The notes beneath the pieces are model-generated. The model was not told the origin of the DNA and searched no databases. It worked only from the letters and a program-made list of their open reading frames with translations. The position numbers and the translations under genes were made by a program. 64,000 nt of DNA from NCBI GenBank assembly GCA_963920635.1, contig OY987302.1:32463278-32527277 (forward strand), given 5' to 3'. Below are positions 4,101 to 29,839 of this stretch, piece after piece; positions within the stretch are counted from its first letter, which is position 1, and each line of letters starts with the position of its first letter. The DNA comes from Pseudeuparius sepicola. Taxonomy: Eukaryota; Arthropoda; Insecta; Coleoptera; Anthribidae.

Positions 4101-4228
4101 AATACAATGTGGTTAAACAAAAAATTCGGTTTGAAGATTATCTGCACGCCCTTCAAAATTTTCAAATGAATAGTGAAACAGAACGTTGTATAAGATCTTA
4201 CAACCACGATGTCTACAGCGTAGAATAG
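1104..4228 (+). pseudogene. Protein-primed DNA polymerase B (outer Polinton), degenerate
   Basis: The polymerase would replicate the linear element by protein priming. Recognisable blocks in order: an N-terminal region with FAW (1440s) and MTIPQIAKFEKLNNISINV; an exonuclease I block with D-x-E (about 2005); an HNH-like zinc block CxxC...DHCHLSG..RG.AH..CN (about 2275-2375); exonuclease III YSDLYLKTD (about 2860); polymerase motif [10 protein letters not shown] (about 3133); KxxxN..YGKTMEN (about 3535); and motif C YTDTDSL (about 3837). The gene runs through all three frames, has a nonsense TAG at 2430-2432 inside the conserved exonuclease II motif (the tyrosine codon is lost), and a deletion after motif A. 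It is clearly inactive and diverged from the other two polymerases in the window. Confidence 0.9.
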
Positions 4229-4463: not shown

Positions 4464-4519
4464 TGTATGTATATATGTTTAAGAAATAAAAATCATTTAT
4501 ATTTTTAAATTGTTTTATT

Positions 4520-8823: not shown

Positions 8824-9348
8824 TCATGGAAGGTATGCCCTCATTTTATTCCATATAACTTGTCTACACAACGGGCACCTATCTATTGATGTTGAACATT
8901 CCATACAAAAAACTAAATGCCCGCAAGGAGACATTAATACCTCTATGGGGTTAGAGAAACAAATTGTACATAATTTTTTTTCTTCATCTTCACAAGTTTG
9001 CTCAGTTTGAGAATAAGCATCAACTTTTTGAGTCCACACCTCATCTTCGGGAACGGCATTCGGGCGAATTTCAATCGGTCGAATTTCAGGTAATTCCGCA
9101 TCAGTATCACCACCTTGTAACACAAAGGGACAGTTCGGAGACCAACTTGCGTGATCGAGCATAGGATTATCTTCAGGTTCCCAATGATATCCTTCGATAT
9201 GACAGTATGGACACTCAACCACATCTTCGTTATTTTTATAGAAAAAACCAGCTTCCGCCAGTTTTTGCCCCGCAATCACACTACTTGATGGCCAAGACTC
9301 AAACGATTTGAGTCTGTCATCAATATTTTTATATGACACTAGTTCCAT
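8824..9348 (-). CDS. iap: Inhibitor-of-apoptosis protein, one BIR plus C-terminal RING
   Basis: An intact 174-residue protein. The BIR domain spans about residues 8-80 with zinc ligands Cys46, Cys49, His66 and Cys73 (CPYC...W.....D....H...NC). A C3HC4 RING lies at the C-terminus with Cys127, Cys130, Cys142, His144, Cys148, Cys151, Cys158 and Cys161. IAPs of this layout bind caspases or IAP antagonists and act as E3 ubiquitin ligases; large DNA viruses of insects use them to delay cell death. It lies inside the Polinton between ATPase and capsid genes in the same orientation, so I read it as an element-borne host-derived gene. It is one of the few undamaged frames in the outer element. A later host retrogene insertion is the alternative. 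Confidence 0.9.
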   Translation of the reverse strand: MELVSYKNIDDRLKSFESWPSSSVIAGQKLAEAGFFYKNNEDVVECPYCHIEGYHWEPEDNPMLDHASWSPNCPFVLQGGDTDAELPEIRPIEIRPNAVPEDEVWTQKVDAYSQTEQTCEDEEKKLCTICFSNPIEVLMSPCGHLVFCMECSTSIDRCPLCRQVIWNKMRAYLP

Positions 9349-9419
9349 TTTTTAATATACGATTCGCGTACTACTGGCTAGATATTCCGCAGATTGTTAT
9401 TTATATATAAGTATTGTTG

Positions 9420-10257: not shown

Positions 10258-11190
10258 CATCAAGTTTCTGACTACTTCGCTTAGCGGCAGATATTCCATA
10301 AGACTGTCGTGAATAATTAAGCAATACGCTCGAGTGTCTTTAGGAAAACCGACATCACTTTCTATGTCTAGTTTGACGTCAACAGTGCTGGTCTTAAGGG
10401 TCTCATTTCTTCTAGAACAGACGATAACAAACATAGTTACGTTATCTTTGTAATCTTTGTAATCTAGCAGTGGACGTTTCTCACGAACGCCCATAAAATT
10501 TTAATAAAATTCAATGTAACTATTGTAAGCTTCTAAGTAATCATTATTTTTGAAATTCAGCCTCTGCCTTTCAAATGGGAAATATTCACCGTTTAGAATT
10601 AACCTAACGTCTGATATACTTATGTGATCGAATTTTGTGGGATCGCTTTTGCTATTTTCTTTGCGATTAGTTTGAAAACCAACTACAACAAACCTAGGAG
10701 ATTCCACTGCTGCAGATGTTTTCACTGACCAAATTTCTTTACGAGAGTTTGCCGTAAGAGTTGGCAATTCATGTATTTCCCACTTTCTAAAGTGTAAAAT
10801 AATGGGTTGATCTCGCTTTATGGATTGCAGGAGATCTAATCTAATCATATCGTTTGGCTGTATATGTTTCACTTTTAGTTCTATATTGGTAATCAATAAT
10901 GCTGCTGTCAACTCTGTAGTGGAGTCGGCAGCTTTCTCTAGTAGCAGGCAATTATTGTCGTTGCGGGCTCGAATTAGTCTTATTGTTTGCTTACCGCAAA
11001 TGGCATATTGATAATCATTAAAGAGCCCAAACAAATGTTTAAGCGGTATTCTTACGCTGAATGTTCCGTCCTTATTCAAGATTGGCGCATTGTCCTTGGG
11101 ATAGCTCCAACTTGAAGTTACCAAGTACTTTTCATCGTTAGGAGAATAACATAAACATCCCCTCATGGCACTCACAACTCCAGGATCTCT
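10258..11190 (-). pseudogene. Major capsid protein (hexon-like), C-terminal three quarters
   Basis: This is the double-jelly-roll capsid protein of the outer Polinton. Visible hallmarks are F.VRIPLKHLFGLF.DY near 11065, a beta-rich middle, Y..FY before an in-frame TAA (10501-10503), and the typical tail with FVIVCSRRNETLK, FP..TRAYCLIIHD and Y.PL. The same frame continues past the stop, so there is one nonsense mutation. The amino-terminal 102 codons lie at 27194-27499. The break falls between two codons at 11190, exactly at the nested element's edge. No restored product is given. Confidence 0.85.
11185..11190. other. Target-site duplication ATCTCT, left copy
   Basis: Six bases immediately before the AGTAGTGAGG terminus are identical to 27194-27199 after the other terminus. 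A 6-bp duplication is the known signature of Polinton integrases. Confidence 0.95.
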
Positions 11191-11385
11191 AGTAGTGAGG
11201 CAAAGCGGGTGCACCATCATTCCATCTCACTCGCACTCATGTATTTTCCCACATAAGATAACGACTTCCGGTGCGGTCTTATCGCTACTTTTGGTCTCTC
11301 TCTCTCGGCCGTAGTCGCGGCGCGGCGTTGCCTGATCCTCGATTCTGTCGTGTAGGTGCGACGTTGCCTTTTCCTGGAATGAAAT

Positions 11386-11466
11386 AAAAAAAGCCCGTGG
11401 CTGGAATGGAACCTGTTCCGTTCGTGTCCCGACCCCGTCGCTCCGGCCAACTGGGCTATCGCCGCA
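11386..11466 (-). promoter_or_regulatory. Pol III (tRNA-like) promoter unit in left TIR
   Basis: Reading outward on the minus strand there is an A-box TAGCCCAGTTGG (11458-11447), a B-box-like GGTTCCATTCC (11413-11403) and then a run of seven T (11392-11386), which is a Pol III terminator. The A-to-B spacing of 45 nt is exactly tRNA-like. Acceptor and T stems do not pair well, so this is not a tRNA gene. It is either a tRNA-derived SINE head or an element-encoded small RNA. Confidence 0.6.
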
Positions 11467-11599
11467 CGTCGAAGAAGTGACCTTAAAAAGCGCAAACTAG
11501 AATCTCGTCATCCGTTCGGGCGCGCGCGCTTGCTCCTCGAGGGACGCCTGTCAGGTAGACCGGATCCGGGGGCCTGAAAGGCGGAGGAGTCTTGAGCCT

Positions 11600-11830
11600 G
11601 TCAAAAATATACAGGATGGAACAAGAAGAGAAATATGTGAAAAATATTAAGAGAAAAAATACAGTTATGTTGAGAAAAAAATATATACAGAGTGATCAAA
11701 AGTTAGGTTTGAGAAAAATATAGAGTGACCAAAAGTTAGGTTTAAATATGAGAAAAATATACAGGATGGAACAAAAAGAGAAATATGTGAAAATATTAAG
11801 AGAAAAAATATACAGGGTGACCAAAAGTTG
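11600..11830. repeat. Subterminal direct repeats with ATATACAGGATGGAAC and TGACCAAAAGTTAGGTT
   Basis: Imperfect units contain ATATACAGGATGGAACAA, GAGAAATATGTGAAAATATT and TGACCAAAAGTTAGGTTT. They are repeated here and, inverted, at about 26560-26760. They could be replication or packaging signals or an inserted MITE; the phrases resemble the TACAGG(G/A)TG ends of other repeats in this window. Confidence 0.6.
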
Positions 11831-13152
11831 GGTTATGTTGAGAAAAATAGTAACCAAAAGGTAGCTAAATATATGCCATGTCTTAGAAGAAAAATGTCTT
11901 GGAAAGAGTCCCTTGAAGGCGGAGAAAAAGTTGCAGGGTGGACAAATTGTTCACAGAAAACATTTGAGCGGTTTTAGGTGGAATGAATAATAATTGATGC
12001 AAAGTGCATGTTTTCTTTGTTCGTTAAAAATATAATGTGATGTAATGTTTCCGGAGACATTTGATAAAGCTCCATAAAATCAAACACTGCAGAAAGTCTT
12101 CATTTAGTTTCATTGTTCCTTTGAATCAAAATGGGTAAATTAATGAGAAAGCTTCCTAAAAATTAATCGTCTAATCAAAGTTTTTTTTTATTGCAGAATT
12201 TATTAAATTCGTCAAGGAAAAGGTCCAAACCTTACCAGTAAGTTATAAAAATTAAAACTATACCATAATTTATACGTATCTTGTAGCCAGGTGGAAACTA
12301 CACGATAATGTACGGGAAAAAGGGGGATGTCCCCTTTGGAAAGGAGGGGGCACCCCCTTTCATAGGGGAGCACGCCTCACACTATGTGTTTTTTTACATG
12401 GAAGGGCCCCTGGGGGTTGTTTGGGTGTTCCCCAAATGGTATAACAATAATTCTTGTTATTTAACTCTTGTATAACCACTAAATTTGTTTCAGATTCTGT
12501 ATAGCGAGGGTGCTGAATGGTATAGTAAAAAATTGTTAAATTTTGCATGAACATGAAATTTGTTTTTTTTTTCAGATTTGGTCCAGATCAAATAAAAAAT
12601 TAAACCAATTTTTTTATTTTCTCATTACTCCATCCATACAATCATTAAAAAATCTCCTTTTCTTTTTCTAAAGTGAATCACTAAGACATATGTCTTTTAA
12701 AAAGATAAAAACACAAATTTTCCCACTTGAATGCTCGATTTATAATAAACAAAACAATGAATTTCTTGTCTCTTAGTGAATGTTATAAAAATTCTTAAGA
12801 AAAATTTTGTTTTTTAGTTTGTTTCAGACAGATTGATTGATTGATTAAAAGATAAGGAAAAAATAAAAGATACATATAGATATACATATTTTTTATTGAT
12901 AAACACAGTCGCAAAAAATTACAATAATTCCAAATATATTTGTGGTAATTTTATGGGTTAGGTTAGGTTAGGGATACAGGTTCACAAAGTCAATATTTAA
13001 AACATTAGTTTAACGAAGACAAAAATACAACGAACGCAAAAAAGGTCACAACGAACGTAAAAATACAACAAACGCAAAAGTTTCACAATGTACGCAGAAA
13101 ATTATATAAAAAAATTTTTGCACTGTTTTTACATTTTCCAACACCAGATTTT
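11831..13152. other. AT-rich subterminal noncoding region, left arm
   Basis: No supported gene. It contains a GC-rich double hairpin at about 12317-12362 (GGGGGATGTCCCC and AAAGGAGGGGGCACCCCCTTT-like palindromes), three TTAGG units at 12958-12972, and ACGAACGCAAAA.. repeats at 13015-13085. The equivalent, more diverged, sequence is at 25302-26560. Confidence 0.6.
12958..12972 (+). repeat. (TTAGG)3, insect telomere-type motif
   Basis: Three perfect TTAGG units. The right arm has only one or two at the equivalent place. Too short to indicate a telomeric origin. Confidence 0.5.
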
Positions 13153-13695
13153 TTAAAATTCAATAGCCGAATCGTCGTTTTCATCATGCATATTTTCAAA
13201 ACATTGATTGGGATCAAATAAATCGAAGAGGGGAGTTCTAGAACAATTTCCGCACCATTCTTTTGGATTTTTAATCCACCTGTCCATGACTTGAGTAACG
13301 TGAGATGAGAAGTGCTTGCGTTTTCTCTTGGGTGCGCGACGAAAATTCTGATACTCTTCAAATAAAAATTGAACTACACCTTTGCAGTAGAAACACACTT
13401 TCAAATTTTCTAACTGTGGAAACGCAAAATATTCCGTGAAAACACAAAAAAGCGCGTCATGTTCTTCCGGTAAAAAAATCATTCTTTCGTCGAACCAGAG
13501 ATCATCCCACGCGGGTTGATTTAGTAAAAAAGCCACTTCCCTAGGTGTCAGCCGTTCATCAAAATTTATCGAGTCCCGATCTGCATCCTCCCAATCATGA
13601 ATGGTTTCTTTGTAAATTTGAAGCTTGTACTTCGTAAAATCACTAATAATTTCATATTGTAGAGCTGCGGCAGATCCGTCTCTAGAATGTGACAC
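13153..13695 (-). CDS. Hypothetical protein with two Cys pairs (nested Polinton, left arm)
   Basis: A 180-residue open frame between the terminus and PolB, reading outward. It has an amphipathic N-terminal half with TPREVAFLLNQPAWDDLWF, then CFYCKG, a basic patch APKRKRKHFSSHV, W...P.EWCGNC.RTPLFDLFD and an acidic end. The CxxC pairs may bind zinc. Comparison with the right-arm copy shows a 1-nt difference near the start: the right arm's frame continues upstream through KMSCHILETDLPQL, so the left start at 13695 may be an artefact of a frameshift. Function unknown. Confidence 0.6.
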   Translation of the reverse strand: MSHSRDGSAAALQYEIISDFTKYKLQIYKETIHDWEDADRDSINFDERLTPREVAFLLNQPAWDDLWFDERMIFLPEEHDALFCVFTEYFAFPQLENLKVCFYCKGVVQFLFEEYQNFRRAPKRKRKHFSSHVTQVMDRWIKNPKEWCGNCSRTPLFDLFDPNQCFENMHDENDDSAIEF

Positions 13696-13931
13696 GACAT
13701 TTTGAGATTTCGCACAATTTCTTTTTTAGCGAGATTTTGTAATGACAACATTTTTGTATGGTGCACTTAAATAGAACGATAAAAACAATTGTGTGGTAAC
13801 TAAATTACATTGAGAGACAACGGTTTTTAAACCGCCTTTTCCTGTTGACGACGGTCTTATCACAACGCTCTTATCTGTTTACGATCCATTTATGCAAATT
13901 TGAAAAATATATTATGGTGAATCATCGTAGC

Positions 13932-16900
13932 CTAACGGAAACGTTCCGATGTTTCTTCAAGGATTTTGCTTTTATCGTCAAAACTGCTTAGGGCGTTTTT
14001 ATTAACCGTAAACGAATAAATATTATGTTTTTCGGACCTTATCGTATTAAATTTGGAATACAGGTCCGAAGAAGTACCGAAAAGAATGTCTTTATAATTT
14101 TGAAATGTTAAGTTATTAACAGCGAATTTTCCCACACCCTTAGCTTTCTTTACCGAAATTTCCGAATCATCGTCTTCATTGTGAAATTTGAACGCGTACA
14201 TTTTTGCGGCCAAGCCGACAAATTCTGAAATAATTTTACCTTTTACCTCGTCTTTAATATACCCGATTTTCTTCTTGTTAAATTTTGCAATTTTAAACAC
14301 GTTCCCGTCCGGATAATCGCTGGTATCGAAAAATTTGATGCAGTCATTTCGAATGATTTCGTAAAAATCGTGACAAAAAATATGATACATGAGGGAATCG
14401 GTATCGGAATACAGCAGCTTTATTTCCCTTACAGGTAATTTTGTGAAATAATTATAGTGAAAATCATACACGAGGCTTTTGGAAATGTCTAGCACGGAAA
14501 TGCCTACATAAATCGGTTTATTAAACAACAATTCGTTTTTTTTTCATTTCTACGGCTATCAGATTTTCCGAGAAAATTTGCAAAGAATCAAAATTGGGTT
14601 GGGCAATAAGTTTTCTGGCTCCGTATCTCCCGTCCCAGCTAGTGACTAACCTAATATCCCTGTTATTTCCTATATTCTGGACCGTTTTACCGTAAATAAT
14701 GTTATTTTTTCTTTTGTATAAATCCTGTTCAAATTCTGATTTTGCCTGAGCGCGCAAACCCGTATTTAGATCCATATATTTTTTAACCAGGCACTTTGTT
14801 TAAATTTTAAAACCCTATGAATTTGCATCAATTTAATTCCCAAATTTAAAGCTTGGATAAGAAGTTTGTAATGTACAACGTACTTTTCTCTTTTGAAAAA
14901 TGTGCTGGTCAATTTCTTAGGTTTTCCCGGCGTTGTTTCATAGTGGTGGGGGAGCAACGGAAAGTCCCTGTGTTTTTCAAAAAGTTCTTGGGGATAATCG
15001 AGCGTTACTTCTAAAATATACCCAATTCCTTCGCCCCAACCGTTAATATCAATACCTATTTCCGTGATATATCCGTGTCTAGAAGATTTTATGAGCATTT
15101 CAATTTTTTCTAAATCATGTTCCCATTCAAAATTGGAGACGGGAAGTGGACAGGACATAGAAAAACCATAAAGGTTATTTACATCCCCATAAAAAATGTA
15201 TGAGTCTGGGGATGATTCGTCATAATTTTTCATGTATCGATTGGAACAAATAACGAGCCCTCCTCTAATGCCTTTTTCGATAAACAAAATCATATTGTAA
15301 TCGGTCAACAATTCCATTTCAACTTTCGTCATCTTTAGCATGGCGTCCCAGGAAAAATGGGCCGCGGTGAAGAAATGTGCAGCGTCTAGACCGTAATTAT
15401 TAATGCAAAAATCGCGATAGTTCTCAAAAATGTCCGCCAGTAAGATTGCATCAATTCGGAGATATAGATCGCTATATTGCCCCAAATTTTGTATTTTGAA
15501 GGTTTTCCAAACATTTTGAGCATGCAAGTATTTTTCATTGGAAATTGTTTCCCCCGTCAATTTACTGTTAAAATGGTGCATGGCGGGCAGTTCGTTTTCG
15601 CTTAATTTTGAAACGGAATCGAGATAGTCGTATGGAAACACGCCCTTCTTAATAGCTAAATTAAATTGTTCGGGGTCTGGAAAAGTCTTACGCGTTAAAA
15701 CGAACTGATCGGCATTGAGCGATTCGGCTAATTTTTGCAAGGAAGCGGGTAAAAATCTCAAACTGTCCAAAAATCGCATATAAAGAGTTCCCGACCTTTT
15801 ACTGAAAGAAAGAAATTTTTCAAACGAAATCGGCAATAGGGAAATTGATTGATCGTCAAAATTCAACTCCCTGATAATAAAATGTGCGTCATAGCCGCTT
15901 AAATTATGGAAAAATATAGGTACAAAATTCGCGTTTTTACATTGCAAATTACAGTTATTACAAAGTGTTTTTCGATATTCACCCGTCAGGTGATTGTGAT
16001 CGAAAACTTTCGGGTTACTTTCCGAAAATAATTCATCGCAAATCATACACCTGATGACGTTATCATGATTTATTTGCTGTTCTAGAGAAATTTTTGACAT
16101 TGGTAATTTAGTTTTTAATATGTCCTCAATTGTTTTCATTTCAAGACGAATTTTGTTAACGAACCATTTTACTGGGGCTTCTCCCCTGTATATCTCAAAG
16201 TGTGATAATGTTTCATCGAACGAGCAGACTACCTGATAAGCTATACTAAAAGGTTCATGTTTTTGGTAGGGATTGGTGTACGATTTCGAGGGATTATTTT
16301 CGCAATTTTCTATATTGACCGTTAAACATTCTATATCTGCATAAATGGAAAAGGGAACCTTTGCGGTTTTTTTGATGTCCTTAAATTTTAAAATGTTTTC
16401 ATTTTTATTAGGTAAAATAATTTTCACTGGATCTACTCTTTGACAATCCTCTAAATGCGTCGTTAGTTGTTCATTGGAATTGAAATTACACAAACAGCGA
16501 TCACATATGAATTTTTTTCGTTTATTTCCACTAATTTGATTTCCCGTCAGAGTACCTAAATCTAAAATGTAGCAAAAATGTCCCGAACTCGATCTGAACT
16601 TGGTCAAATAAAGCAAATTTACGTGAATTTCCTTAAGTTCTTTTGTGTGATAGATCGGACCGTTAATTTTTTTCTTTATGCTATCGTACCCAAAAACATT
16701 CACCGAAATGGTAGGATTTTGTTTTTCAAATTTAGACAAGTCTGTTATTTTCATAGGTAGTTCAATGTTTCTCAAATTTAAAAATTCGTAATAATTTTGC
16801 GGGTAGTCAGATGGATCGGTGGATCTAATTTTGGTAACGCCCGCCAATATGCACCAAACAAAACAACGCCTATCTACAGATTTTATATTTAAGATACACT

Positions 16901-17441
16901 GTTTTCTTTTTAATTCCGCAGGTAAATCGATAAAAGATCACCCATTTATCGGATCGTACTTATTGATATTAACAGTTAAATTAATAATTTCTTTTAAAGT
17001 CCATCCCGAATCGCCCTCTTCGAATTCAGACATACTGTTCAAAATAAGATCAGTGAAAAAGGTAAAAACATCTTGTATGTGCGTTTCCTCGATAATTTCC
17101 TTGTTTGGTGTTGAAAAATGTTTAATTTCGCTTATTTCAACCTCTTCGGAATCCCTAACTGTTTTCTTAACAAAAACAGCGTATAAAATAACGTTACACT
17201 TGATACATTTTAAACGTGACAGAAAATAAATAATCTTACGTTTAAAAATCGGGAAACAAGATTCCAACGTCGCCAGGATGAATTCCAATCTTCTTTTTTC
17301 GGAGAGTTTTGCTGATCCGAGAAGGAGGCTTCTGCAGCGATCGATGTATTTTCCATTTTTTCCGATTAGGTCCGATAAATCACCCTCTGTTTGCGCCAAA
17401 TAATACAAGTTTTGAACAGACTGATTTGTGCTGTGATCCAT
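13932..17441 (-). pseudogene. Protein-primed DNA polymerase B (nested Polinton, left copy)
   Basis: This is the replicative polymerase of the element, about 1,170 codons. An N-terminal extension (17441-16941) ends at an in-frame TGA (16938-16940). The long frame 16937-14766 then has a C2H2-like finger (CDRC...H...C), exo I YADIEC, an HNH/EndoVII-like block CMIC...DHNHLTG..R..LC..CN, exo II SGYDAHF, exo III YSDLYLRIDA, and motif A DVNNLYGFSMS. A 1-nt loss in an A-run near 14783 shifts to 14775-14521 (NNIIYGKTVQN). A second A-run shift near 14535 leads to 14531-13932 (motif C YSDTDSL). Three small lesions, two in homopolymers, make this either a very young pseudogene or partly a sequencing problem. 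Confidence 0.9.
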
Positions 17442-17552
17442 TTTGTGTGTTTATCTGTAAAAACGGTTCTTTAGATTTTCACCGGTAAAAAACAAAAAAA
17501 AAACTTACTGTTTATCGGTTCGGGTTCTGATGTCGATTAGCGCACACTCTTG

Positions 17553-17762
17553 TCACATCACCGTCTTCACCTCCTTCACCACTAGCACCATTTTACCGGC
17601 CCATCGCTGTTTGAAGTCCTCCACGGCCGCCCGATCAAAAACGTGCAGGAATCTCTTCGGCAGCCAGCAACTAAATTCACCCAAATTGACTAGGACGGCT
17701 TCTCCAATTTCCGTGTGTTTTCGGTCCACGTCCAGAATTATGTACTCCGTGCCCAGTTCCAA
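17553..17762 (-). CDS. Small LPxRF-family protein (nested Polinton)
   Basis: 69 residues: YIILD.....T..GEAVLVNL..F.CWLPKRF followed by a short hydrophobic tail. The same pattern (K.ILSF...T.YGE.V.VE...F...LPARF) is seen in the 100-residue protein at 29840-30142 of the outer element, so I treat both as one small Polinton family. The beta-rich pattern is compatible with a small nucleic-acid-binding fold, but nothing proves it. It lies between PolB and the 248-aa gene in the same orientation. Confidence 0.55.
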   Translation of the reverse strand: MELGTEYIILDVDRKHTEIGEAVLVNLGEFSCWLPKRFLHVFDRAAVEDFKQRWAGKMVLVVKEVKTVM

Positions 17763-17849
17763 TTCGACTAATTTTTTTTATCGGATTTAGGTTGAAATTA
17801 AGCGCCTCTTCTAGTTTCTTGAAATCCATGAGGAAGCTGTTGACGCGAG

Positions 17850-18062
17850 GAGACCACAACGAACAATGAAACTCGGTTCGGCTACGAGGCGAAGGCTTTA
17901 TCGCCCGTCGCGCGCCCAGGCGGGGAAGGCTTATCGCGCGCCCGTTAAGGCGGGGAAATATTAAGAACGGGATTCCCGCAGTGTGCAAAGCGCCCGACCC
18001 TAAGAGGGCACCTGCCAGGTAGCCTTAAAGGACGAGGGTCCGGGGGCCTGAGAGGGATAGAA
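17850..18062. promoter_or_regulatory. GC-rich spacer with repeats and a TIR-like motif
   Basis: A GC island in AT-rich surroundings. It contains a direct repeat GCGCGCCC...AAGGCGGGGAA (17910s and 17935s) and, at 18008-18055, ACCTGCCAGGTAG ... GGTCCGGGGGCCTGAGAGG. This matches the subterminal GCCTGTCAGGTAG ... GATCCGGGGGCCTGAAAGG of the left TIR (11547-11583). It sits at the 3' side of the 248-aa gene and 5' of the small gene, so a promoter, origin or recombination site is possible. Confidence 0.45.
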
Positions 18063-18088
18063 AGATTTGACTTTTTCTTAATCTTTAT

Positions 18089-18835
18089 TCAAAAATATCT
18101 TCTCATGTACAGGTAGGATAACAACTTATTTCTATCGAAATGGAGTAGTTCGAATATGCAAAATGTTTCCAAGGTGAAAGAGGCATTACAAATTTCTAAC
18201 ATTATTTCTATGGGATTCAATACATAATTACACCTAATCAGTAGTTCGTTAACTCTATCTAAAAAGCTATCGTAAAATTCGTTAATTTTCAGTTTTAACA
18301 ATACGTCAAATTTCGTAGAAATAAACTTATCGATTACATTGACTAATTCAAAAATATCGGATTCCAGAAAATAATGGCACACTTCGTTCATGGAGAGTAC
18401 TGCAATTTTGAGCCCGTCCAATCCGACCATCGTGCTAAGTTCCAGATTTTCGTTTGTGGTAAATTTCAGGGAAATGTCCCGTGTTGACGTCATCCCGAAG
18501 AATTCTCGCGTAAATTTATTCAATAACGAAATAAACTCGTTCCATTCCTCGTGATCTAACGATATGGTGGCGAAATCTCTCGTATCCAAGTGGTTAGTGA
18601 TATTGACCGTGGGCTTGAAATAAGAGTCCGGCTTCAGGCCGCAATGTATGGTGAAAACGTTGTTTGGAATTAACACAGAACACGTGTTTAACACAAGTTG
18701 TTGTCTCTTCTTTTCGTCGCAGAGGTTCGTAATGCGCCCGACTTCGTGATTGCAATCGCAACATGGTCGCGAGGAACCGTAACCGCTATCGACGCTCATC
18801 TTTTGAAAACTAACGCGGAGGGTTTTGGGCAACAT
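18089..18835 (-). CDS. Hypothetical Polinton protein, 248 aa
   Basis: Intact frame. The N-terminus has CCDCNHEVG, then NTCSVLIPNNVFTIHCGL, NHLDTRDFATI, DGLKIAVLS and a helical C-terminal half ending YMRRYF. The outer-element homologue is 4520-5197. It starts 16 bp downstream of the integrase stop in an apparent minus-strand gene series. No family recognised. Strict co-conservation with integrase in two divergent elements suggests a core element function. Confidence 0.75.
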   Translation of the reverse strand: MLPKTLRVSFQKMSVDSGYGSSRPCCDCNHEVGRITNLCDEKKRQQLVLNTCSVLIPNNVFTIHCGLKPDSYFKPTVNITNHLDTRDFATISLDHEEWNEFISLLNKFTREFFGMTSTRDISLKFTTNENLELSTMVGLDGLKIAVLSMNEVCHYFLESDIFELVNVIDKFISTKFDVLLKLKINEFYDSFLDRVNELLIRCNYVLNPIEIMLEICNASFTLETFCIFELLHFDRNKLLSYLYMRRYF

Positions 18836-18850
18836 TTTTTATCCCCACCA

Positions 18851-19783
18851 TCACAAAACATTAACGCCATCTATCCACGAATCGTGAGATTTGTCAAGGC
18901 CAAGCCAACGTACCAAAACTTTCCCTCCTTTTTTTCTCAAAATTTTTTCCACTAGGTAAACGTCGGGATTTGCAGTTTTCTGTAACTCTTCACCGTAAAA
19001 ACCTCCTTTTATAGGGTTTCCGATCGTATCCTCCAGCAAATACGTAGCGGGATTGGTCATTTGTACTTTGACTATTTTAAAGAGTTCCGTGGTCCAGTTT
19101 GGTGTGTAGCCTTTATTGAAAATATGCTTGGCTTTGCTGATTCTGACCATATCACCCATTTTGAATTTTTGCCTGCCTAAAATCTTCATGTGACTGTAAA
19201 CGGTTTTCTGCAAGCGACGTGCACTGCCCTTGTTCACATCTTTAGGTTTCATTTGAATAGTTCTATGTCTTTGATTATTGTACTCTCCTACTAGATCGGG
19301 TAGTACATCGAGCCATTTATATTTCCCGCTTAAACTGAAATATTTGAATAATTTTTCTTTTAAGGTACGGATCACTCTTTCCACAATGGCGGCTTTCGTA
19401 TTGCTAAACGTGCTGTAATGGTTAATGTTGTACGACTTCATCAGTTTATTAAAGTGCGTATTATAGAATTCCTTTCCGTGGTCTGTTTGGAGATTTTGCG
19501 GGTGTCTAGAATTTTTTAAAATTTCACCAAAAGCCTTTGTAACCTCTTCGCCCGTCTTTGATTTAAGCGGTTTACACCACACGAATTTTGAAAAACAATC
19601 GATCACGACTAGAATAAATTTAAAATTTCTATTTTGCTTCGCATATTGATCCAATTGACCGAGATCTGCCTGCCAGGGATCGTCTAACCCTTTAATTATC
19701 GTCCTACGACGAGGATAATTTTTTCGGGCCGGTTTATGCAACTCTTCGACAACTTGAATTTTTTCTTTTGAATGATCGGGCAT
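18851..19783 (-). CDS. INT: Polinton integrase (retrovirus-like DDE) with chromodomain, intact
   Basis: A 310-residue protein. The catalytic core carries Asp40 (WQADLGQLDQY), Asp101 (QTDHGKEF) and Glu135 (AAIVERVIRTLK). A basic SH3-like segment (KMGDMVRI..AKHIFNKGYTPNW) follows at about 205-235, and a chromodomain-like tail (VEKILRKKGGKVLVRWLGLDKSHDSW) at about 270-305. It is complete and unbroken, which fits the sharp 6-bp target duplication of this element. A chromodomain tail may bias integration to particular chromatin. It is the best preserved enzyme in the window. Confidence 0.93.
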   Translation of the reverse strand: MPDHSKEKIQVVEELHKPARKNYPRRRTIIKGLDDPWQADLGQLDQYAKQNRNFKFILVVIDCFSKFVWCKPLKSKTGEEVTKAFGEILKNSRHPQNLQTDHGKEFYNTHFNKLMKSYNINHYSTFSNTKAAIVERVIRTLKEKLFKYFSLSGKYKWLDVLPDLVGEYNNQRHRTIQMKPKDVNKGSARRLQKTVYSHMKILGRQKFKMGDMVRISKAKHIFNKGYTPNWTTELFKIVKVQMTNPATYLLEDTIGNPIKGGFYGEELQKTANPDVYLVEKILRKKGGKVLVRWLGLDKSHDSWIDGVNVL

Positions 19784-19786
19784 ATT

Positions 19787-20403
19787 TTAATTTTTATGTT
19801 TCTTTGCGGCAGGAGCAGACGTTTCACCCTGTTGTTCGGGCGTTTCTATTATTTTCCGAGCCCCTTCCAGCTTTTTATTGATTTCCAAAATGGCTTTTTC
19901 CGCCGCTATTTCGACGGAATTTACTTTAGTTTTAAGACCATTTTCTGCATTTTCAATTTTGCCACGTAAAATGTTCATATCACTGTCAAGGTCTGTCAAA
20001 CGTTTTTTTTGAAGGCCGTTTCGATTTGTTGAATTTGTTTCTTAACGTCTCTTATGTCCTTCACTCTGTCATTTAGCTCGGAATCCATTTTTGTCTTTAA
20101 TTCTTTTTGTATAGCGACGTGTTCAATCCGAGATTCTTTTATGAACTTATTCGCGTCTATAATAACCGAGTTTAATGTTTTGTTTGCATTAATTTGCGTG
20201 TTTTTTACGCAACGATCGATATATTGTTTGGTGGCGGCGTCTCCGTTTTCGGTAGGTTCACTTAGGTTGGCAATTTTCAAATTTTTCGCATCTATTGATC
20301 CGTCGGGAGTTAATTCCAAAATAACACTACCCAAAGGCGTGGAGAGGTGGGAACTTTGACGTGTTTTGGATTGTGAGTACTGTCCAAATTTGTTCACGCT
20401 CAT
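19787..20403 (-). pseudogene. Fibre-like coiled-coil protein (nested), one frameshift
   Basis: The N-terminal frame (20403-19996) opens MSVNKFGQYSQS and carries DGSIDAKNLKIANL.EP followed by GDAATKQYID. This resembles the repeated 'nL..P...tDAatk.YvD' trimerisation block of phage tail fibres (family knowledge; similarity by eye only). A heptad coiled coil follows. A shift near 19997 moves to the second frame, ending in a charged PEQQGETSAPAAKKHKN tail. The stop of the second frame precedes the integrase start by only a few bases. Confidence 0.65.
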
Positions 20404-20434
20404 TTTGAAAATGAACGAAAATGTTGTCGTGCAC

Positions 20435-21451
20435 TTAATAAATAAGGTTGCTTTCTAGTAATTCGTTTAAGATAGCCACAATCTCGTTGTCGTGAGAATT
20501 ATTTCCGGCGTTTTTGGATGCCACTAGCAGTCTCAACCTGTCCACTAATTCGTTTATATCGTCCCAGTACACGTATTCTATCGGTTTCTTGTTAAAAGCC
20601 AATTTCATACCCCCACCAATCGATGACGATGATTTTGAACGTGTACTAGCTTTCCTTTCGGGTACGGGTATGGAGCTAGGTGTTCTAAAAAAAGGTTTAA
20701 TAATTTCCATGTACTTGTGACGAGTGGTACCCTTCAATCTGCCAAGCTAATCGAGATGAATTCCAGTAAGAGTTAAGATGGTCTTATATTTTTCCCTGTC
20801 TTCCTCGTTGCTTTGTGGGTCATCGTGAAAAATTAAATTATAAAGCCCTTTTGTACCTTTAAATTTATCCTTTCCGTCGACAATAATATCTCCTGTCGTT
20901 TTATCAAAATCGATAAGTTTGTTTCTTAGAAACCATTTTGACTTGGAGGCATCATAAAACGGCCCATACACCTTATCTATAAGCTGCGATTTATCGTGAT
21001 ATTCTCCGATATAGGGTTGAGCAATTTCCGGGTATGATTCAATATATTCTTGAAAAACTTGTGGTGGATATTGTGTTGTGTCAACATCGTCATCACGCAG
21101 CGTCGTCTCGTCAGCGGGACGAATGGGATCTTCCCAGTAGGTTTCATCTTGAAGGAAAGGCGAACGAGATTTTTCAATGCTGGCTTTCAACGCGGCGAGT
21201 TTTCTGTTTATTCTGTCTTCAATTCCTTCTTCTTGCTCTACTTTTTCTATAATTTCTGGTACTTCTTTAGGTTCAAATTTTAAGTTATCGATCAACGATG
21301 TATTGGCTTCAATCTTTTCAAGTTTACGTGTTACCGGTTTAAACATTTTCTCGACAGATTCATCCTGTTCGAATTTCCCCAATTTTAGGGCCGTATACTT
21401 TTTTCTGATGGAGCGCGCGAGTTCTTTGATTTTCTTGGAACGTTGTGACAA
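20435..21451 (-). pseudogene. DUF8207-like Polinton protein (nested), one nonsense codon
   Basis: Frame 21451-20747 opens MSQRSKKIKELARSIRKKY and contains a Glu-rich linker, PPQVFQEYIESYPEIA, PFYDASKSKWFL.NKLIDFD, then GDIIVDG.DKFKGTKGLYNLIFHDDP. A TAG at 20747-20749 interrupts it. The same frame continues to 20435 with LGRLKGTTRHKYMEIIKPFF and WDDINELVDRLRLLVASKNAG. The outer homologue reads through at this point, so the stop is a lesion. Function unknown; conserved between the ATPase and the fibre-like gene. Confidence 0.75.
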
Positions 21452-21472
21452 ATGATTAATTGCGCGATAAAA

Positions 21473-21800
21473 TCAAAGTTTTATATATTGATCGAACCCC
21501 TTTCTATAGCGCCCATTGTTCAAATTAAAATCCTTAATAATCACCAAAGTGCCATAGTTGTCGTTCCAGCACTGCGAACATAGCCTCTTAAATTCTTCAT
21601 AGGTTAAATACGTGTTCGTCGTACACATGCCTGAGATTAAGGTTATCCTGTCTAAATAGTACAATGACATTACAGTTATCGCGGATCAATTGTTTAGGTA
21701 TTTTCGAATAAGTCTGACAGAGATAGGCCACATCTATACCCCTGTGTCTACCCATGGAATAGAATTCCCTTATTTTATTTTGTCTATCGCTGGCCACAGC
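21473..21800 (-). pseudogene. Packaging ATPase, 3' fragment truncated by the arm junction
   Basis: Only the region after Walker B survives: VASDRQNKIREFYSMGRHRGIDVAYLCQTYSKIPKQ, RDNCNVIVLFRQD, then, after a short indel near 21615, CSQCWNDNYGTLVIIKDF and YRKGFDQYI. Everything upstream, including the Walker A P-loop seen in the outer copy, is replaced by inverted polymerase sequence beginning about 21801. The truncation shows what the inverted duplication removed. Confidence 0.85.
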
Positions 21801-24497
21801 TATCGTACAAAAGAACTTAAGGAAATTCACGTAAATTTGCTTTATTTGACCAAGTTCAGATCGAGTTCGGGACATTTTTGCTACATTTTAGATTTAGGTA
21901 TTCTGACGGGAAATCAAATTAGTGGAAATAAACGAAAAAAATTCCTATGTGATCGCTGTTTGTGTAATTTCAATTCCAATGAACAACTAACGACGCATTT
22001 AGAGGATTGTCAAAGAGTAGATCCAGTGAAAATTATTTTACCTAATAAAAATGAAAACATTTTAAAATTTAAGGACATCAAAAAAACCGTAAAGGTTCCC
22101 TTTTCCATTTATGCAGATATAGAATGTTTAACGGTCAATATAGAAAATTGCGAAAATAATCCCTCGAAATCGTACACCAATCCCTACCAAAAACATGAAC
22201 CTTTTAGTATAGCTTATCAGGTAGTCTGCTCGTTCGATGAAACATTATCACACTTTGTGATATACAGGGGAGAAGCCCCAGTAAAATGGTTCGTTAACAA
22301 ATTCGTCTTGAAATGAAAACAATTGAGGACATATTAAAAACTAAATTACCAATGTCAAAAATTTCTCTAGAACAGCAAATAAATCATGATAACGTCATCA
22401 GGTGTATGATTTGCGATGAATTATTTCGGAAAGTAACCCGAAAGTTTTCGATCAAAATCACCTGACGGGTGAATATCGAAAAACACTTTGTAATAACTGT
22501 AATTTGCAGTGTAAAAACGCGAATTTTGTACCTATATTTGTCCATAATTTAAGCGGCTATGACGCACATTTTATTATCAGGGAGTTGAATTTTGACGATC
22601 AGCCAATTTCCCTATTGCCGATTTCGTTTGAAAAATTTCTTTCTTTCAGTAAAAGGTCGGGAACTCTTTATATGCGATATTTGGACAGTTTGAGATTTTT
22701 ACCCGCTTCCTTGCAAAAATTAGCCGAATCGCTCAATGCCGATCAGTTCGTTTTAACGCGTGAGACTTTTCCAGACCCCGAACAATTTAATTTAGCTATT
22801 AAGAAGGGCGTGTTTCCCTACGACTATCTCGATTCCGTTTCAAAATTAAGTGAAAACGAACTGCCCGCCATGCACCATTTTAACAGTAAATTGACGGGGG
22901 AACAATTTCCGATGAAAAATACTTGCATGCTCAAAATGTTTGGAAAACCTTCAAAATACAAAATTTGGGGCAATATAGCGATCTATATCTCCGAATAGAT
23001 GTAATCTTACTGGCAGACATTTTTGAGAACTATCGCGATTTTTGCATTAATAATTACGGTCTAGACGCTGCACATTTCTTCACCGCGGCCCATTTTTCCT
23101 GGGAAGCCATGTTAAAGATGACGAAAGTTGAAATGGAATTGTTGACAGATTACAATATGATTTTGTTTATCGAAAAGGGCATTAGAAGAGGGCTCGTTAT
23201 TTGTTCCAATCGATACGCGAAAGCGAATAATAAATACATGAAAAATTATGACGAATCATCCCCAGACTCATACATTTTTTATGGGGATGTAAATAACCTT
23301 TATGGTTTTTCTATGTCCTGTCCACTTCCCGTCTCCAATTTTGAATGGGAACATGATTTAGAAAAAATTGAAATACTCATAAAATTTTCTAGACACGGAT
23401 ATATCACGGAAACAGGTATTGATATTAACGGTTGGGGCGAAGGAATTGGGTATAACACAGGGACTTTCCGTTGCTCCCCACCACTATGAAACAACGCCGG
23501 GAAAACCTAAGAAATTGACCAGCACATTTTTCAAAAGAGAAAAGTACGTTGTACATTACAAACTTCTTATCCAAGCTTTAAATTTGGGCATTAAATTGAT
23601 GCAAATTCATAGGGTTTTAAAATTTAAACAAAGTGCCTGGTTAAAAAAATATATGGATCTAAATACGGGTTTGCGCGCTCAGGCAAAATCAGAATTTGAA
23701 CAGGATTTATACAAAAGAAAAAATAACATTATTTACGGTAAAACGGTCCAGAATATAAGAAATAACAGGGATATTAGGTTAGTCACTAGCTGCGACGGGA
23801 GATACGGAGCCAGAAAACTTATTGCCCAACCCAATTTTGATTCTTTGCAAATTTTCTCGGAAAATCTGATAGCCGTAGAAATGAAAAAAAAAACGAATTG
23901 TTGTTTAATAAACCGATTTATGTAGGCATTTCCGTGCTAGACATTTCCAAAAGCCTCGTGTACGATTTTTAATATAATTATTTCACAAAATTACCTGTAA
24001 GGGAAATAAAGCTGCTGTATTCCGATACCGATTCCCTCATGTATCATATTTTTTGTCACGATTTTTACGAAATCATTCGAAATGACTGCATCAAAATTTT
24101 CGATACCAGCGATTATCCGGACGGGAACGTATTTAAAATTGCAAAATTTAACAAGAAGAAAATCGGGTATATTAAAGACGAGGTAAAAGGTAAAATTATT
24201 TCAGAATTTGTCGGCCTGGCCGCAAAAATGTACGCGTTCAAATTTCACAATGAAGACGATGATTCGGAAATTTCGGTAAAGAAAGCTAAGGGTGTGGGAA
24301 AATTCGCTGTTAATAACTTAACATTTCAAAATTATAAAGACATTCTTTTCGGTACTTCTTCGGACCTGTATTCCAAATTTAATACGATAAGGTCCGAAAA
24401 ACATAATATTTATTCGTTTACGGTTAATAAAAATGCCTTAAGCAGTTTTGACGATAAACGCAAAATCCTTGAAGAAACATCGGAACGTTTTGGTTAG
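21801..24497 (+). pseudogene. DNA polymerase B, N-truncated inverted copy (nested, right arm)
   Basis: A mirror copy of the left-arm polymerase, starting at the codons equivalent to YHTKELKEIHVN, so about 320 N-terminal codons are missing. It keeps the C2H2-like finger, YADIEC, SGYDAHF, YSDLYLRIDV, DVNNLYGFSMS, GKTVQN and YSDTDSL. Lesions are frameshifts near 22310, 22430, 22910 and 23895, a deletion near 23455, and a TAA at about 23970-23972 replacing a histidine codon. It cannot make an active enzyme. Confidence 0.9.
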
Positions 24498-24753
24498 GCT
24501 ACGACGATTCACCATAATATATTTTTCAAATTTGCATAAATGGATCGTAAACAGGAAATGTATGCGACGCGCGGATTGATAAGATCGTTGTGATAAGACC
24601 GTCGTCAACAGGAAAAGGCGGTTTAAAAACCGTTGTCTCTCAATGTAATTTAGTTACCACACAATTGTTTTTTATCGTTCTATTTAAGTGCACCATACAA
24701 AAATGTTGTGATTACAAAATCTCGCTAAAAAAGAAATTGTGCGAAATCTCAAA

Positions 24754-25301
24754 ATGTCGTGTCACATTCTAGAGACGGATCTGCCGCAGCTTGTACAATA
24801 TGAAATTATTAGTGATTTTACGAAGTACAAGCTTCAAATTTACAAAGAAACCATTCACGACTGAGAAGGTGTAGAGCAGGAGGTGATACATTTTGAAAAT
24901 TAGATGACACCTAGGGAAGTGGCTTTTTTTACTAAATCAATCCGCGTGGGATGATCTCTGGTTCAATGAAAGAATGATTTTTTTACCGGAAGAACATGAC
25001 ATGCCTTTTTGTGTTATCACGGAATATTTTACGTTTCCACAGTTAGAAAATTTGAAAGTGTGTTTCTACTGCAAAGGTGTAGTTCAATTTTTATTTGAAG
25101 AGTATCAGAATTTTCGTCGCGCACCCAAGAGAAAACACTTCTCATCACACGTTACTCAAGTCATGAACAGGTGGATTAAAAATTCGCAAGAATGGTGCGG
25201 AAATTGTTCTAGAACCCCCCCTCTTCGATTTGTATGACCCACATTTATGTTTTGAAGTCATGCATAATGAAACCGATGATGATTCGGCTATTGAATTTTA
25301 A
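24754..25301 (+). pseudogene. Inverted copy of the 13153-13695 gene (right arm)
   Basis: It starts MSCHILETDLPQLVQYEII, continues to KYKLQIYKETIHD, then hits stops near 24862 and 24903 and a frameshift near 24930. The frame with FLPEEHDMPFC.ITEYF, CFYCKG and WCGNCSRTP (24974-25237) is open, and the acidic tail is shifted. More decayed than the left copy. Confidence 0.75.
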
Positions 25302-26560
25302 AAAACTGGTGTTGGAAAAATGTTTTTAAAAATATTGCAAAATTATAAGATTTTTTTTATATAATTTTCTGCGTACGTTGTGATCCTTTTGCGTTTGTTG
25401 TATTTTTGCGTTCGTTGTGACCTTTTTTGCGTTCGTTGTATTTTTGTCTTCGTTAAAGCAAAAAAAAATATACATAAGGACTCTGTGAACCTGTATACCT
25501 AACCCATGAAATTACCCCAAATATATTTGTAATTATTGTATTCTTTTTTTACCTTCGTTAAGCTAAAGTTTTAAATATTGACTTTGAGAACCTATATACC
25601 CATTAACAATAAAAAAATTTGTATATCTATAGGTATCTTTTATTTTTTTTCTTATCTTTTTAATCACCATCGAAACTCAAATTTTAACGAATCCATTCTT
25701 TTTATTTTTCTCCTTATCTTTTAATCTGGTTAAAACACATAATTTTTCTTAAGAATTTTTATAACATTTCACTAAGACACAAGAAATTCACTGTTTTGTT
25801 TATTATAAATCGAGCTTTCAAGTGGGAAAAAATTGAGTAATTTTTTATCTATTTAAAAAGACATATATCTTAGTGATTTTAGAAAAAAGAAAAGGAGATT
25901 TTTTAATGATTGTATGGATGGAGTAATGGGGAAAATAAAAAAAATTGTTGAGTTTAATTTTTATTTATTCTGCACCAAATCTGAAACAAATTTAGTGGTT
26001 ATACAAAGGTTAAATAACAAGAATTATTGTTATACCATTTGGGGTACACCCAAACAACCCCCAGGGGTCCTTCCACGTAAAAGAATACGTAATATGATCC
26101 ATGTTCCCCTATGAAGGGGGGGTGCAATACTGCCCATCTGGCTACAAAATACGCATAAATTATGATATAGTTTTAATTTTATAACTTACTGGTAATGTTT
26201 GCACCCTTTGCTTAATAAATTATATAAATTCTGAAACAAAAAAATTGATTAGAGGATTAATTTTTAGGAAGCTTTCTCATTACTTTACCCATTTTGCCAC
26301 AAAGAAACAACGAGACTAAATGAAGACTTTTCTGCAGTGTTTGATTTTATGGAGCTTTATCAAATGTCCGGAAACATTACATCGCATTCTATTTTTAACG
26401 AACAAAGAAAACATGCACTTTGCATTAATTATTATTCATTCCACCTAAAACCGCTTAAATGTTTTCTGTGAACAATTTGTCAACCCTGCAACTTTTTCTC
26501 CGCCTTTAAGGAACTCTTTCCAAGACATTTTCTTCTAAGACATCGCATATATTTACCTAC
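25302..26560. other. AT-rich subterminal noncoding region, right arm
   Basis: No supported gene. It is the diverged mirror of 11831-13152, including the GCGTTCGTTGT repeats at 25380-25450 and the GGGGG-rich hairpin area near 26110-26125. ORFs here are chance frames. Confidence 0.6.
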
Positions 26561-26918
26561 CTTTTGGTATAACCTAACTTTTGGTCACCCTGTATATTTT
26601 TTCTCTTAATATTTTCACATATTTCTCTTTTTGTTCCATCCTGTATATTTTCTCATATTTAACCTAACTTTTGTTCATATTTTTTCTCTTAATATTTTTC
26701 ACATATTTCTCTTCTTGTTCCATCCTGTATATTTTTCTGAACTTTTGGTCACCCTATTTTTTCCAACATCTCAAGACTCCTCCGCCTTTCAGGCCCCCGG
26801 ATCCGGATCCTCTCACGCTACCTGACAGGCGTCTCTCGAGGTGCAAGCGCGCGCGCGCCCGAACGGATGACGTCGGCGAGATTCTAGTTTGCGCTTTTTA
26901 AGGTCACTTCTTCGACGT

Positions 26919-26998
26919 GCGGCGATAGCCCAGTTGGCCGGAGTGACGGGGTCGGGACACGAACGGAACAGATTCGATTCCAGCCACGGGCTTTTTTT
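26919..26998 (+). promoter_or_regulatory. Pol III (tRNA-like) promoter unit in right TIR
   Basis: Inverted partner of the left unit, with A-box TAGCCCAGTTGG (26926-26937), B-box GATTCGATTCC (26971-26981, closer to consensus than the left copy) and T7 at 26992-26998. A14 and G18-G19 positions are kept. It would transcribe toward the element terminus. Its presence in both arms means it predates or took part in the inverted duplication. Confidence 0.6.
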
Positions 26999-27193
26999 AT
27001 TTCATTCCAGGAAAAGGCAACGTCGCACCTACACGACAGAATCGAGGATCCGGCAACGCCGCGCCGCGACTGCGGCCGAGAGAGAGAGACCAAAAGTAGC
27101 GATAAGACCGCACCGGAAGTCGTTATCTTATATGTGAAAATACATGAGTGCGAGTGAGATGGAATGATGGTGCACCCGCTTTGCCTCACTACT

Positions 27194-27199
27194 ATCTCT
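27194..27199. other. Target-site duplication ATCTCT, right copy
   Basis: Identical to 11185-11190, and it directly follows the ...CCTCACTACT terminus. On the minus strand it forms two complete codons of the capsid gene at both sides, so the target site was inside that reading frame. Confidence 0.95.
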
Positions 27200-27499
27200 C
27201 ACCATTTCCAACTCTTTGCCATTAAGTTCGTATGAGACAGAATCAAAGAAAAACGATGCACCATTGTTTACAAGCTTGCAAGTACCAGTGCCTGATTTCT
27301 TGTTTATTTTACCTTTTATGAAAATTGCAGCATCATACATCAACAACCAAGCGTCACCTTGATTAATGGTTATTTCTACGATGTCATTGTTCATGAAGGA
27401 CTTTACGAACGGATAATAGGAGCGTGCTTCTAAACGTTGAATAGATTCATCGAACTTTGGTTTCTGATGCACGTCGAACACTTGATGCGTCAATGACAT
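27194..27499 (-). pseudogene. Major capsid protein (outer Polinton), N-terminal 102 codons
   Basis: It starts MSLTHQVFDVHQKP at 27499 and contains a beta-rich stretch with VEITINQGDAWLLMYDA and FFDSVSYELNG. The frame is open up to the nested element edge at 27194; codon phase there equals that at 11190. N-terminal capsid start motif and following segments match the 'F..P.fd.si..leyh.y.P' start seen in adintovirus-like capsids (by eye). The rest of the gene is at 10258-11190. Confidence 0.85.
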
Positions 27500-27650
27500 G
27501 ATAACCGAGATATTTTAAGAATAGGCGATTTTCAGGTGTAAGACTCGTATTACGATCTCTACTCTTGTACAGCTCTGCTGGTTGTGAACTTCTCGACCGA
27601 CCGACACTCCTTTTATATGGTCGGTACCTACCATCAAAAACTAACACCAT
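27500..27650 (-). CDS. Small basic protein with LTPENRLFLKYLGY motif
   Basis: About 50-60 residues are readable: an Arg/Ser-rich start (PYKRSVGRSRSSQP) then SLTPENRLFLKYLGY. Its end overlaps the capsid start in another frame. A short protein with an 'LT..N..FL..LG' motif just before the capsid gene recurs in insect Polintons (from memory). Role unknown, possibly capsid-associated. Confidence 0.5.
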
Positions 27651-28769: not shown

Positions 28770-29587
28770 TGGGAGTTTTTTTCTTTAAATATAAACCGAA
28801 TTCTCCGTGATTATTTTTCTTTAAGTAAAGCCCAGATCCCGTTTTTCCAATAGCTTCCATTGCCCTATTATGACGTATTTGTTCATCAATTTTTTTCTGC
28901 GCGTTTTTTGCGTCTATAGCGGTTTTCGCAACAGCGCTAGCACCATCAGCTACCGAACCGAGGGCCCCCAAAGCTCCTAACAGGGCAGTAGGGGTAAAAA
29001 GACCCCTGTTTTCTTTTCAAAGGGAATCACTCTCGGTACTCGAATTTTTCGTTTCCCTCCCGCCTTCTTGATGGCTAATCGTGCAGCGCGCAAAGCTGCC
29101 GATGAATTTTTTTTCAAATTCCTGACATCATTAAGCTGATCTCTATCAAATGTTTTTTCAATGATCTCGAGACTTTTCCCACGATATCTTTTTTAAAAGA
29201 AACCGAACCTTTTTTCGGCTTTATTCCCATTCCCAATTTTCGTTTAGTTTTCATTGCGGTCGTGACTAGAAGAGCGGCAGCCTTTTCACCAAATTTTGCG
29301 TCTTTTGATTTAACACGTCCCCAAGCCCTATTTTCCAATTCTAAATCGGCTGCGTGTCTCTCCTTTAAAGATCTATTTTCTGAATATGCAATATCGTGCT
29401 CCTTGCACGCAGCGTCTAACTTATTTATACCAGCGTCACCTCTCGCAATTCTTTTTTGTAATTTTGTGCCAGGACCACAAAACTGATATCCAGGAAGATG
29501 TAATTCGACGGGCATCTTATTTATTAGCGTGTTCACCAACCCTTCACCTGTGAAGGATGACATTGAACTGATTCCAGTCAAATGCAC
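28753..29587 (-). pseudogene. PLA2-domain / pX-like virion core protein, frameshifted
   Basis: The first part (29587-29114) has a parvovirus-VP1-like phospholipase A2 domain: Ca-loop FCGPGT (residues 37-41) and the catalytic pair in DAACKEHDIAYS (His64-Asp65). A basic stretch follows. A frameshift near 29160 leads to a basic, nuclear-localisation-like segment (RAARLAIKKAGGKRK). After a second shift near 28985 comes an Ala/Gly-rich block (GALGSVADGASAVAKTA) and GSGLYLKK...GLYLKKK, as in adenovirus pX/pVI-like core proteins of adintoviruses (family knowledge). PLA2 would open endosomal membranes at entry. Inactive here. Confidence 0.75.
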
Positions 29588-29839
29588 TTGGACGTATTTA
29601 TATGTTCTGCGCTCAGAAGCAATCGGAACTTTTAGATTTGAGTTTCAATTTTGTAGGGGTTGTAGGGGTAAATAAAAATTGACTATCATATTTTATTTTT
29701 TACAATTTTTTAAATTTATGTCTTTGAACTTTATTTATTTCATACATTTCAATTTCATATTTTAGATTTTGAAGAGATATTAGATAAAATTCCAATCTTC
29801 TTTTGTAGTGTTGTTTGCGTCGCCTCTTGTCAGTGGGAT

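Follow-up and report, generated by a model that had tools for sequence, protein, structure and literature searches.

A palindromic Polinton with two left ends and mosaic arms in the genome of Pseudeuparius sepicola

Introduction

Polintons are thought to be viruses that are copied by a protein-primed polymerase, and their replicating form is hard to observe. Other protein-primed linear replicons are known to give rise to rearranged derivatives. Adenoviruses produce defective genomes with inverted duplication of their ends, and the linear killer plasmids of yeast produce palindromic derivatives in which one end is inversely duplicated. The light intermediate and incomplete particles of adenovirus are described as containing left-end DNA (PMC5033970). 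For intact vertebrate Mavericks the figures given are a length of 12.7–24.6 kb and terminal inverted repeats (TIRs) of 46–1,447 bp, with a mean of 402 bp, together with an (AGT)2 tip motif and a target-site duplication (TSD) of 6 bp (PMC8097293). We found no palindromic Polinton in the literature searched, at the level of search results.

Here we describe an element of 16,003 bp (11191–27193) in the window, the whole stretch of 64,000 nucleotides of Pseudeuparius sepicola DNA that was analysed, with inverted arms at 11191–16653 and 21800–27193. The type B polymerase, the RVE integrase, the (AGT)2 tips, the 6-bp TSD and the length of 16 kb are all shared with Polintons/Mavericks (Polintoviricetes; adintovirus-like). 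Unlike these it has 5.4-kb arms that include the polymerase gene (polB) and two left ends; genes for capsid and protease are missing, and the ATPase gene is reduced to a stump. In being a putatively protein-primed linear genome reduced to left-end sequence it resembles the incomplete genomes of adenovirus. It differs from adenovirus defective genomes in being integrated in a chromosome, in its 5.1-kb single-copy core and in its mosaic arms. The arrangement of a snap-back genome, with one end inversely duplicated around a unique loop, is present; whereas the killer-plasmid palindromes are cytoplasmic and non-integrated, this one is integrated.

Results

Arms and core of the palindrome

Comparison of the window with itself revealed inverted similarity in 23 pieces, 11190–16653 against 21800–27194, the best of which scored 5,993 bits against at most 32.8 bits in simulated segments (n = 20, Markov-1). 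Aligned end to end the arms are identical at 4,932 of 5,178 ungapped columns (95.2%), with 246 substitutions and 42 gap events. The identity is uneven, being 96–98% in the outermost 0.7 kb, 82.9–90.2% from 12145 to approximately 13275, 91.9–95.9% from there to 13773 and 96.7–99.6% from 13773 inward. The features are as follows:

11191–16653, minus strand: left arm with terminus, small gene and polB, reading toward the left tip (self-comparison, open reading frames (ORFs), alignment)
13153–13725, minus strand: small gene, a 190-aa ORF with no Pfam match above cut-off
13932–16937, minus strand: left-arm polB, a 723-aa ORF (14766–16937) and a separate 203-aa ORF (13932–14543); PF02945
16654–21798, minus strand: single-copy core (self-comparison, relatives)
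16938–17450, minus strand: 170-aa ORF upstream of polB, no Pfam match
18089–18838, minus strand: 249-aa ORF, no Pfam match; DNA similar to 4514–5118 of the outer element described below
18851–19786, minus strand: integrase (RVE), PF00665 above cut-off (E 5.3e-11), open over 311 aa; chromo match below cut-off
19996–21472, minus strand: three ORFs (152, 103 and 241 aa), the first resembling a T7 tail-fibre N-terminal model below cut-off
21690–21798, minus strand: packaging-ATPase stump, cut at the junction; start approximate, aligned to outer 8133–8241 (PF04665 on the outer homologue)
21799, no strand: junction, a single base G between the ATPase stump and the inverted polB
21800–27193, plus strand: right arm, the inverted left half, with polB reading toward the right tip (self-comparison, ORFs, Pfam, alignment)

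The earlier note had described inverted arms around a 5.1-kb single-copy core, and both the self-comparison and the end-to-end alignment bear this out, with the arms in the places that it gave. It had also given each arm a terminus, a small gene and polB, which holds for the left arm; the polB of the right arm lacks its N-terminal part and is broken into several frames. The polB ORFs are split in both arms. An ORF of the right arm matches PF03175 above cut-off, predicting a type B DNA polymerase (viral/organellar), and the left-arm gene is identified through its match to this ORF.

Genes for capsid and protease and a whole ATPase gene are absent from the element; the core ORFs have no Pfam match of these kinds, and the ATPase stump is seen by alignment. 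We therefore regard the element as a defective derivative, an incomplete Polinton/Maverick. Over 3,179 columns the core shows 41 substitutions private to it (9 synonymous, 20 non-synonymous and 12 non-coding, with no stop), compared with 2–14 in each of seven relatives, and is likewise divergent or mosaic. Searches of phage records gave no match, and no relative was found in IMG/VR.

A single insertion into a second Polinton-like element

The palindrome sits in the major capsid gene of a second, resident Polinton-like element, a nesting on which the earlier note is silent. Further genes recognised in this outer element are a BIR/RING gene, a Pox_A32-type ATPase gene, a phospholipase-like gene and a protease-like gene, the last with a match below cut-off. 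The borders are:

11185–11190, no strand: left copy of the TSD ATCTCT, 6 bp
11191–11507, plus strand: left terminal repeat, tip AGTAGTGAGG
26877–27193, minus strand: right terminal repeat, of the same type as the left
27194–27199, no strand: right copy of the TSD ATCTCT, 6 bp
27194–27514, minus strand: outer element, first part of the major capsid gene, placed by alignment, no Pfam match alone
10501–11190, minus strand: outer element, later part of the major capsid gene, PF21738 double jelly roll

Tips of the (AGT)2 type are present at 11191 and at 27193. When placed on homologous capsid genes the flanks share exactly 6 bp in 19 of 20 cases, the remaining one (L017) differing at that place, and this overlap within one capsid gene indicates that the palindrome is bordered as one clean insertion. 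The clean termini and target duplication claimed in the earlier note are thus in place. It had named as an alternative two independent Polintons with separate target duplications, meeting at 21.8 kb; this was checked and rejected, since there is one TSD and the flanks belong to one capsid gene. No element-end sequence was found at 21.8 kb.

The right terminal repeat is of the left type as far out as the type can be distinguished, approximately 15–30 bp from the tip. Thirteen of 15 ordinary right ends differ from the left type at approximately this distance, the exceptions being L012 and L027.

Relatives in the host assembly and the junction

At least 127 integrase matches occur in the host assembly, which comprises 769 Mb in 16 contigs. 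In the 20 best-scoring other loci we inspected approximately 9 kb upstream of the integrase (two of these loci, L015 and L018, overlap). The close kin of the palindrome in this genome carry the full gene set: the capsid region was matched in 20 of the 20 upstream stretches, the ATPase in 19 and the protease region in 18. The right terminal repeat was reached in 16, its subterminal part only in L014 and L016, and neither in L013 and L015. None of the 20 stretches contained an inverted polB, and long TIRs as a trait of the family were rejected on this count, with L013 and L015 stopping short of the right end. Both tips were located in three relatives, whose lengths by coordinate arithmetic are 15.9 kb at C5:31.68 Mb, 17.0 kb at C11:40.65 Mb and 28.1 kb at C2:74.47 Mb, compared with 16.0 kb for the palindrome; all three have matching 6-bp TSDs. 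The genome also contains a two-ended mini element of 1.1 kb with the TSD CCTACA, which indicates that end-only derivatives can integrate. Among the 120 integrase matches listed of 2,470 the closest reach 79% identity, and the named relatives, from the beetles Exocentrus, Cryptolaemus, Euwallacea, Harmonia and Popillia, are 54–66% identical.

The window tracks the ATPase gene of these relatives as far as 21798; a single additional G follows, and from 21800 the sequence continues as inverted polB. Past 21798 the ATPase gene runs on in 19 of 20 relatives, L018 being without the ATPase stretch. The junction is exact, lacking clear microhomology and containing just this one added base. Compared with its kin, the palindrome stops in the ATPase gene; in place of everything beyond, the capsid genes and the right end included, it has the left half again, inverted and beginning within polB.

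With 21600–22000 as the query, one of the 40 scored genome matches (539 candidates) spans the junction, and this is the window itself. The polB half alone is matched by a further 23, among them the left arm of the palindrome itself, and the ATPase half alone by 16. The earlier note had suggested that further copies with the same junction would prove that the palindromic form itself transposes; this search gave no second copy among the 40 scored matches, and so no sign of renewed movement of this palindrome.

Ancestry of the two arms

The relationship between the arms changes along their length. Over the inner polB (21800–23270; 11 sequences) 22 sites are informative, and the arms disagree at 12 of them. 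Here, over 1.4 kb, the left arm differs from the copy at C5:31.69 Mb at 6 of 1,479 positions, a grouping with 98% ultrafast bootstrap, and from the right arm at 24 of 1,479. The affinity of the left arm to L034-type copies continues past 16653 into the core, to approximately 17.0 kb. Private substitutions over the inner 1.5 kb number 8–10 in the right arm and 0–1 in the left, with three 1-bp deletions in the right and one 21-bp deletion in the left; that the left arm has almost no private substitutions in this part is in keeping with its having been overwritten here at a later time. We also considered the right arm as an older, decayed copy and dropped this reading, the excess of private changes being 8:0 or 10:1 over the inner 1.5 kb and a weaker 12:7 over the next.

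In the middle polB (23300–24840; 16 sequences) the arms are each other's nearest relatives, with 21 differences in 1,513 positions and 94% ultrafast bootstrap; the copy next nearest to the right arm differs from it at 33/1539, and for the left arm the corresponding figure is 26/1556. Private changes here are similar in number (right 12, left 7). Four sites are exclusive to both arms when compared with 14 other copies, with one conflicting among 31 informative, and five when compared with five other copies. We left out L033, which is very divergent (333/1442), and, from the middle-polB comparison, the partial L075.

Extending the comparison to 23300–25150, which includes a divergent outer stretch, gives a tree in which the left arm joins copies of the L034 type (100%), its nearest relative being L052 (40/1804) and the right arm farther away (48/1791). 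In the outer part, from 24858 to approximately 26340 (approximately 1.5 kb), the two arms have different nearest relatives, and the terminal repeats of both are one type. In score-ranked genome searches with pieces of the right arm, the window's own left arm came below 12 other places in one search and 16 in another, the latter with 46 matches, fragments included, and for the query 25300–27193 it was not among the 60 matches listed. For 23300–24840 we read the low rank as an effect of gaps, since by substitutions the left arm is first of 15.

As judged from these trees and site counts the arms of the palindrome are mosaic. They are sister over approximately 1.5 kb of polB only, with the inner and outer parts differing, and so have partly common and partly different ancestry. 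The earlier note had proposed a fixed snap-back genome. What we observe is a Polinton that is integrated, has two left ends and has had its capsid genes replaced. The arms do not appear to be simply two copies of one molecule, and because they are sister neither over the inner 1.4 kb nor over the outer 1.5 kb, a single-molecule snap-back is not supported as it was put forward.

Inverted polB pairs in a second family

Inspection by eye of the 152 matches listed for a polB piece (150 scored, from 1,690 candidates) revealed at least three inverted pairs that face outward and lie less than 10 kb apart: the window's own, and two of another polB family at C3:47.40 Mb and C8:14.47 Mb. This second family is 44–45% identical in protein to the window's polB; a fragment of it matches PF03175, and its named insect relatives are 35–46% identical. 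The arms are 99.75% identical at C3:47.40 Mb (797 bp) and 98.95% at C8:14.47 Mb (764 bp), and 98.4–98.7% between the two loci, which have in common a repeat-rich centre piece (98.4% over 500 bp). Four 1.3-kb windows located 3.3–4.7 kb further out showed no mutual homology, from which we conclude that the flanks differ, and comparison of these windows did not reveal the ends of the palindromes. A common centre with unrelated flanks at two loci is as expected if the palindromic form had transposed.

Discussion

The element has two left ends, its capsid half is gone, and one TSD borders the whole. It appears to be an unusual defective form, the origin of which can be read in part from its relatives. 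With about even confidence, we favour a defective, capsid-less Polinton that acquired its two left ends through a swap during replication and integrated once, its arms having recombined later or earlier. We infer that the swap would have taken place during synthesis of the linear genome by its putative protein-primed polymerase, either by a nascent or displaced strand switching to the opposite strand or by a broken left half joining another left half. Both ends would still be usable as origins and as integrase substrates, and the palindromic unit would have integrated once, by its own integrase or that of a helper. Recombination with family members may then have overwritten parts of the arms, either after integration or already in the replicating pool. 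This explanation is favoured by the kin, whose 20 upstream stretches all have the capsid region and in no case an inverted polB, by the exact junction, the left-type right terminal repeat and the clean TSD, and by the approximately 1.5 kb of polB that is sister between the arms and the 1.1-kb mini element. Against it stand the different closest relatives of the inner and outer arm parts, the grouping of the left arm with L034-type copies over 23300–25150 and the reach of that affinity to approximately 17.0 kb, the low rank of the left arm in the score searches, the 41 private core substitutions and the single junction copy among 40 scored matches.

Alternatively, the left halves of two different co-resident Polintons may have been joined end to end and the arms partly homogenised later, which we consider rather unlikely. 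The different nearest relatives of the inner and outer segments, the one extra base without clear microhomology and the unequal private changes and deletions of the inner 1.5 kb are in keeping with such a chimera. However, the arms are sister over approximately 1.5 kb with four exclusive sites, and their terminal repeats are of one type, so that the homogenisation has to be assumed. It is also conceivable, though improbable, that a normal Polinton in the capsid gene lost its right half in place when a break was mended by copying in a left half in inverted orientation, the repair finishing through homology at the terminal repeat, with the TSD and tips inherited from the original insertion. The TSD and flanks are equally expected under this scenario, and the TSD does not separate rearrangement in place from integration as a palindrome. 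Among the 40 scored matches the junction occurs in the window alone, and the terminal repeats are homologous, so that repair could end there. The right terminal repeat is of the left type, from which 13 of 15 ordinary right ends depart close to the tip, and this argues against repair in place; the argument is weak because L012 and L027 also have left-type right ends. An assembly artefact, either a hairpin read or a misjoined repeat, is very improbable. The region is repetitive, with 39 other places matching one or other half of the junction query, but 246 substitutions and 42 gap events separate the arms, and both flanks belong to one capsid gene with an exact TSD.

The inverted polB pairs of the second family suggest that two-ended palindromes may recur in this host. 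For the mobility of palindromic polB elements these loci are a lead, short of proof. That palindromic, two-left-ended Polintons are recurring capsid-less genomes here, which integrate and in one family spread, is a possibility we put forward tentatively.

If the favoured explanation of a swap during replication is true, a fixed genome with two left ends, intact tips and a TSD would be a genomic trace of replication errors of the adenovirus type. It would suggest that the capsid half and the right end are dispensable in cis for integration, and the dynamics of defective Polinton genomes would become testable from genome assemblies.

Further genes and repeats in the window

The outer element, the second Polinton-like element whose capsid gene holds the palindromic Polinton, carries several additional genes, which are given here by window position with the other polB-like gene and the fold-back repeats.

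625-4228, polB-like gene in fragments, outer element (DNA similarity)
8824-9351, BIR/RING (inhibitor-of-apoptosis-like) gene of the outer element (Pfam)
29114-29644, phospholipase A2-like gene of the outer element (Pfam)
33295-33966, self-inverted fold-back repeat (82% over 0.7 kb)
36595-40008, minus strand, further polB-like gene (DNA similarity to the 625-4228 gene)
44429-45630, self-inverted fold-back repeat (86% over 1.2 kb)

Two pieces of the fragmented polB-like gene had no Pfam match, and its orientation relative to the integrase is opposite to that of polB in the inner family, the genomic relatives of the palindromic Polinton. The minus-strand gene shares 70.6-80.4% identity with this fragmented gene across two DNA pieces, and the 36598-38418 portion of the minus-strand gene was also without a Pfam match. 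We also observed a retroelement-like stretch (48858-55762), bound by 187-bp direct repeats (97%), with minus-strand ORFs labelled by eye as gag-like, pol-like and env-like.

Related elements elsewhere in the host assembly

Two mini elements of ~1.1 kb, L066 (C3:12220720-12221945) and L067 (C2:10902140-10903330), each consist of two inverted family ends; a target site duplication, CCTACA, is present at one and absent from the other. On C11 (40.49-40.51 Mb) two family integrases, L015 and L018, lie ~7 kb apart on the same strand, and one of these elements abuts the other or sits inside it.

Near-identical inverted polB pairs were also found for a second polB family, distinct from that of the palindromic Polinton, at G000:C3:47400000-47409600 and G000:C8:14472350-14481150 (pieces L078-L087). 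The flanks at the two loci are unrelated. These pairs are candidate mobile palindromic elements.
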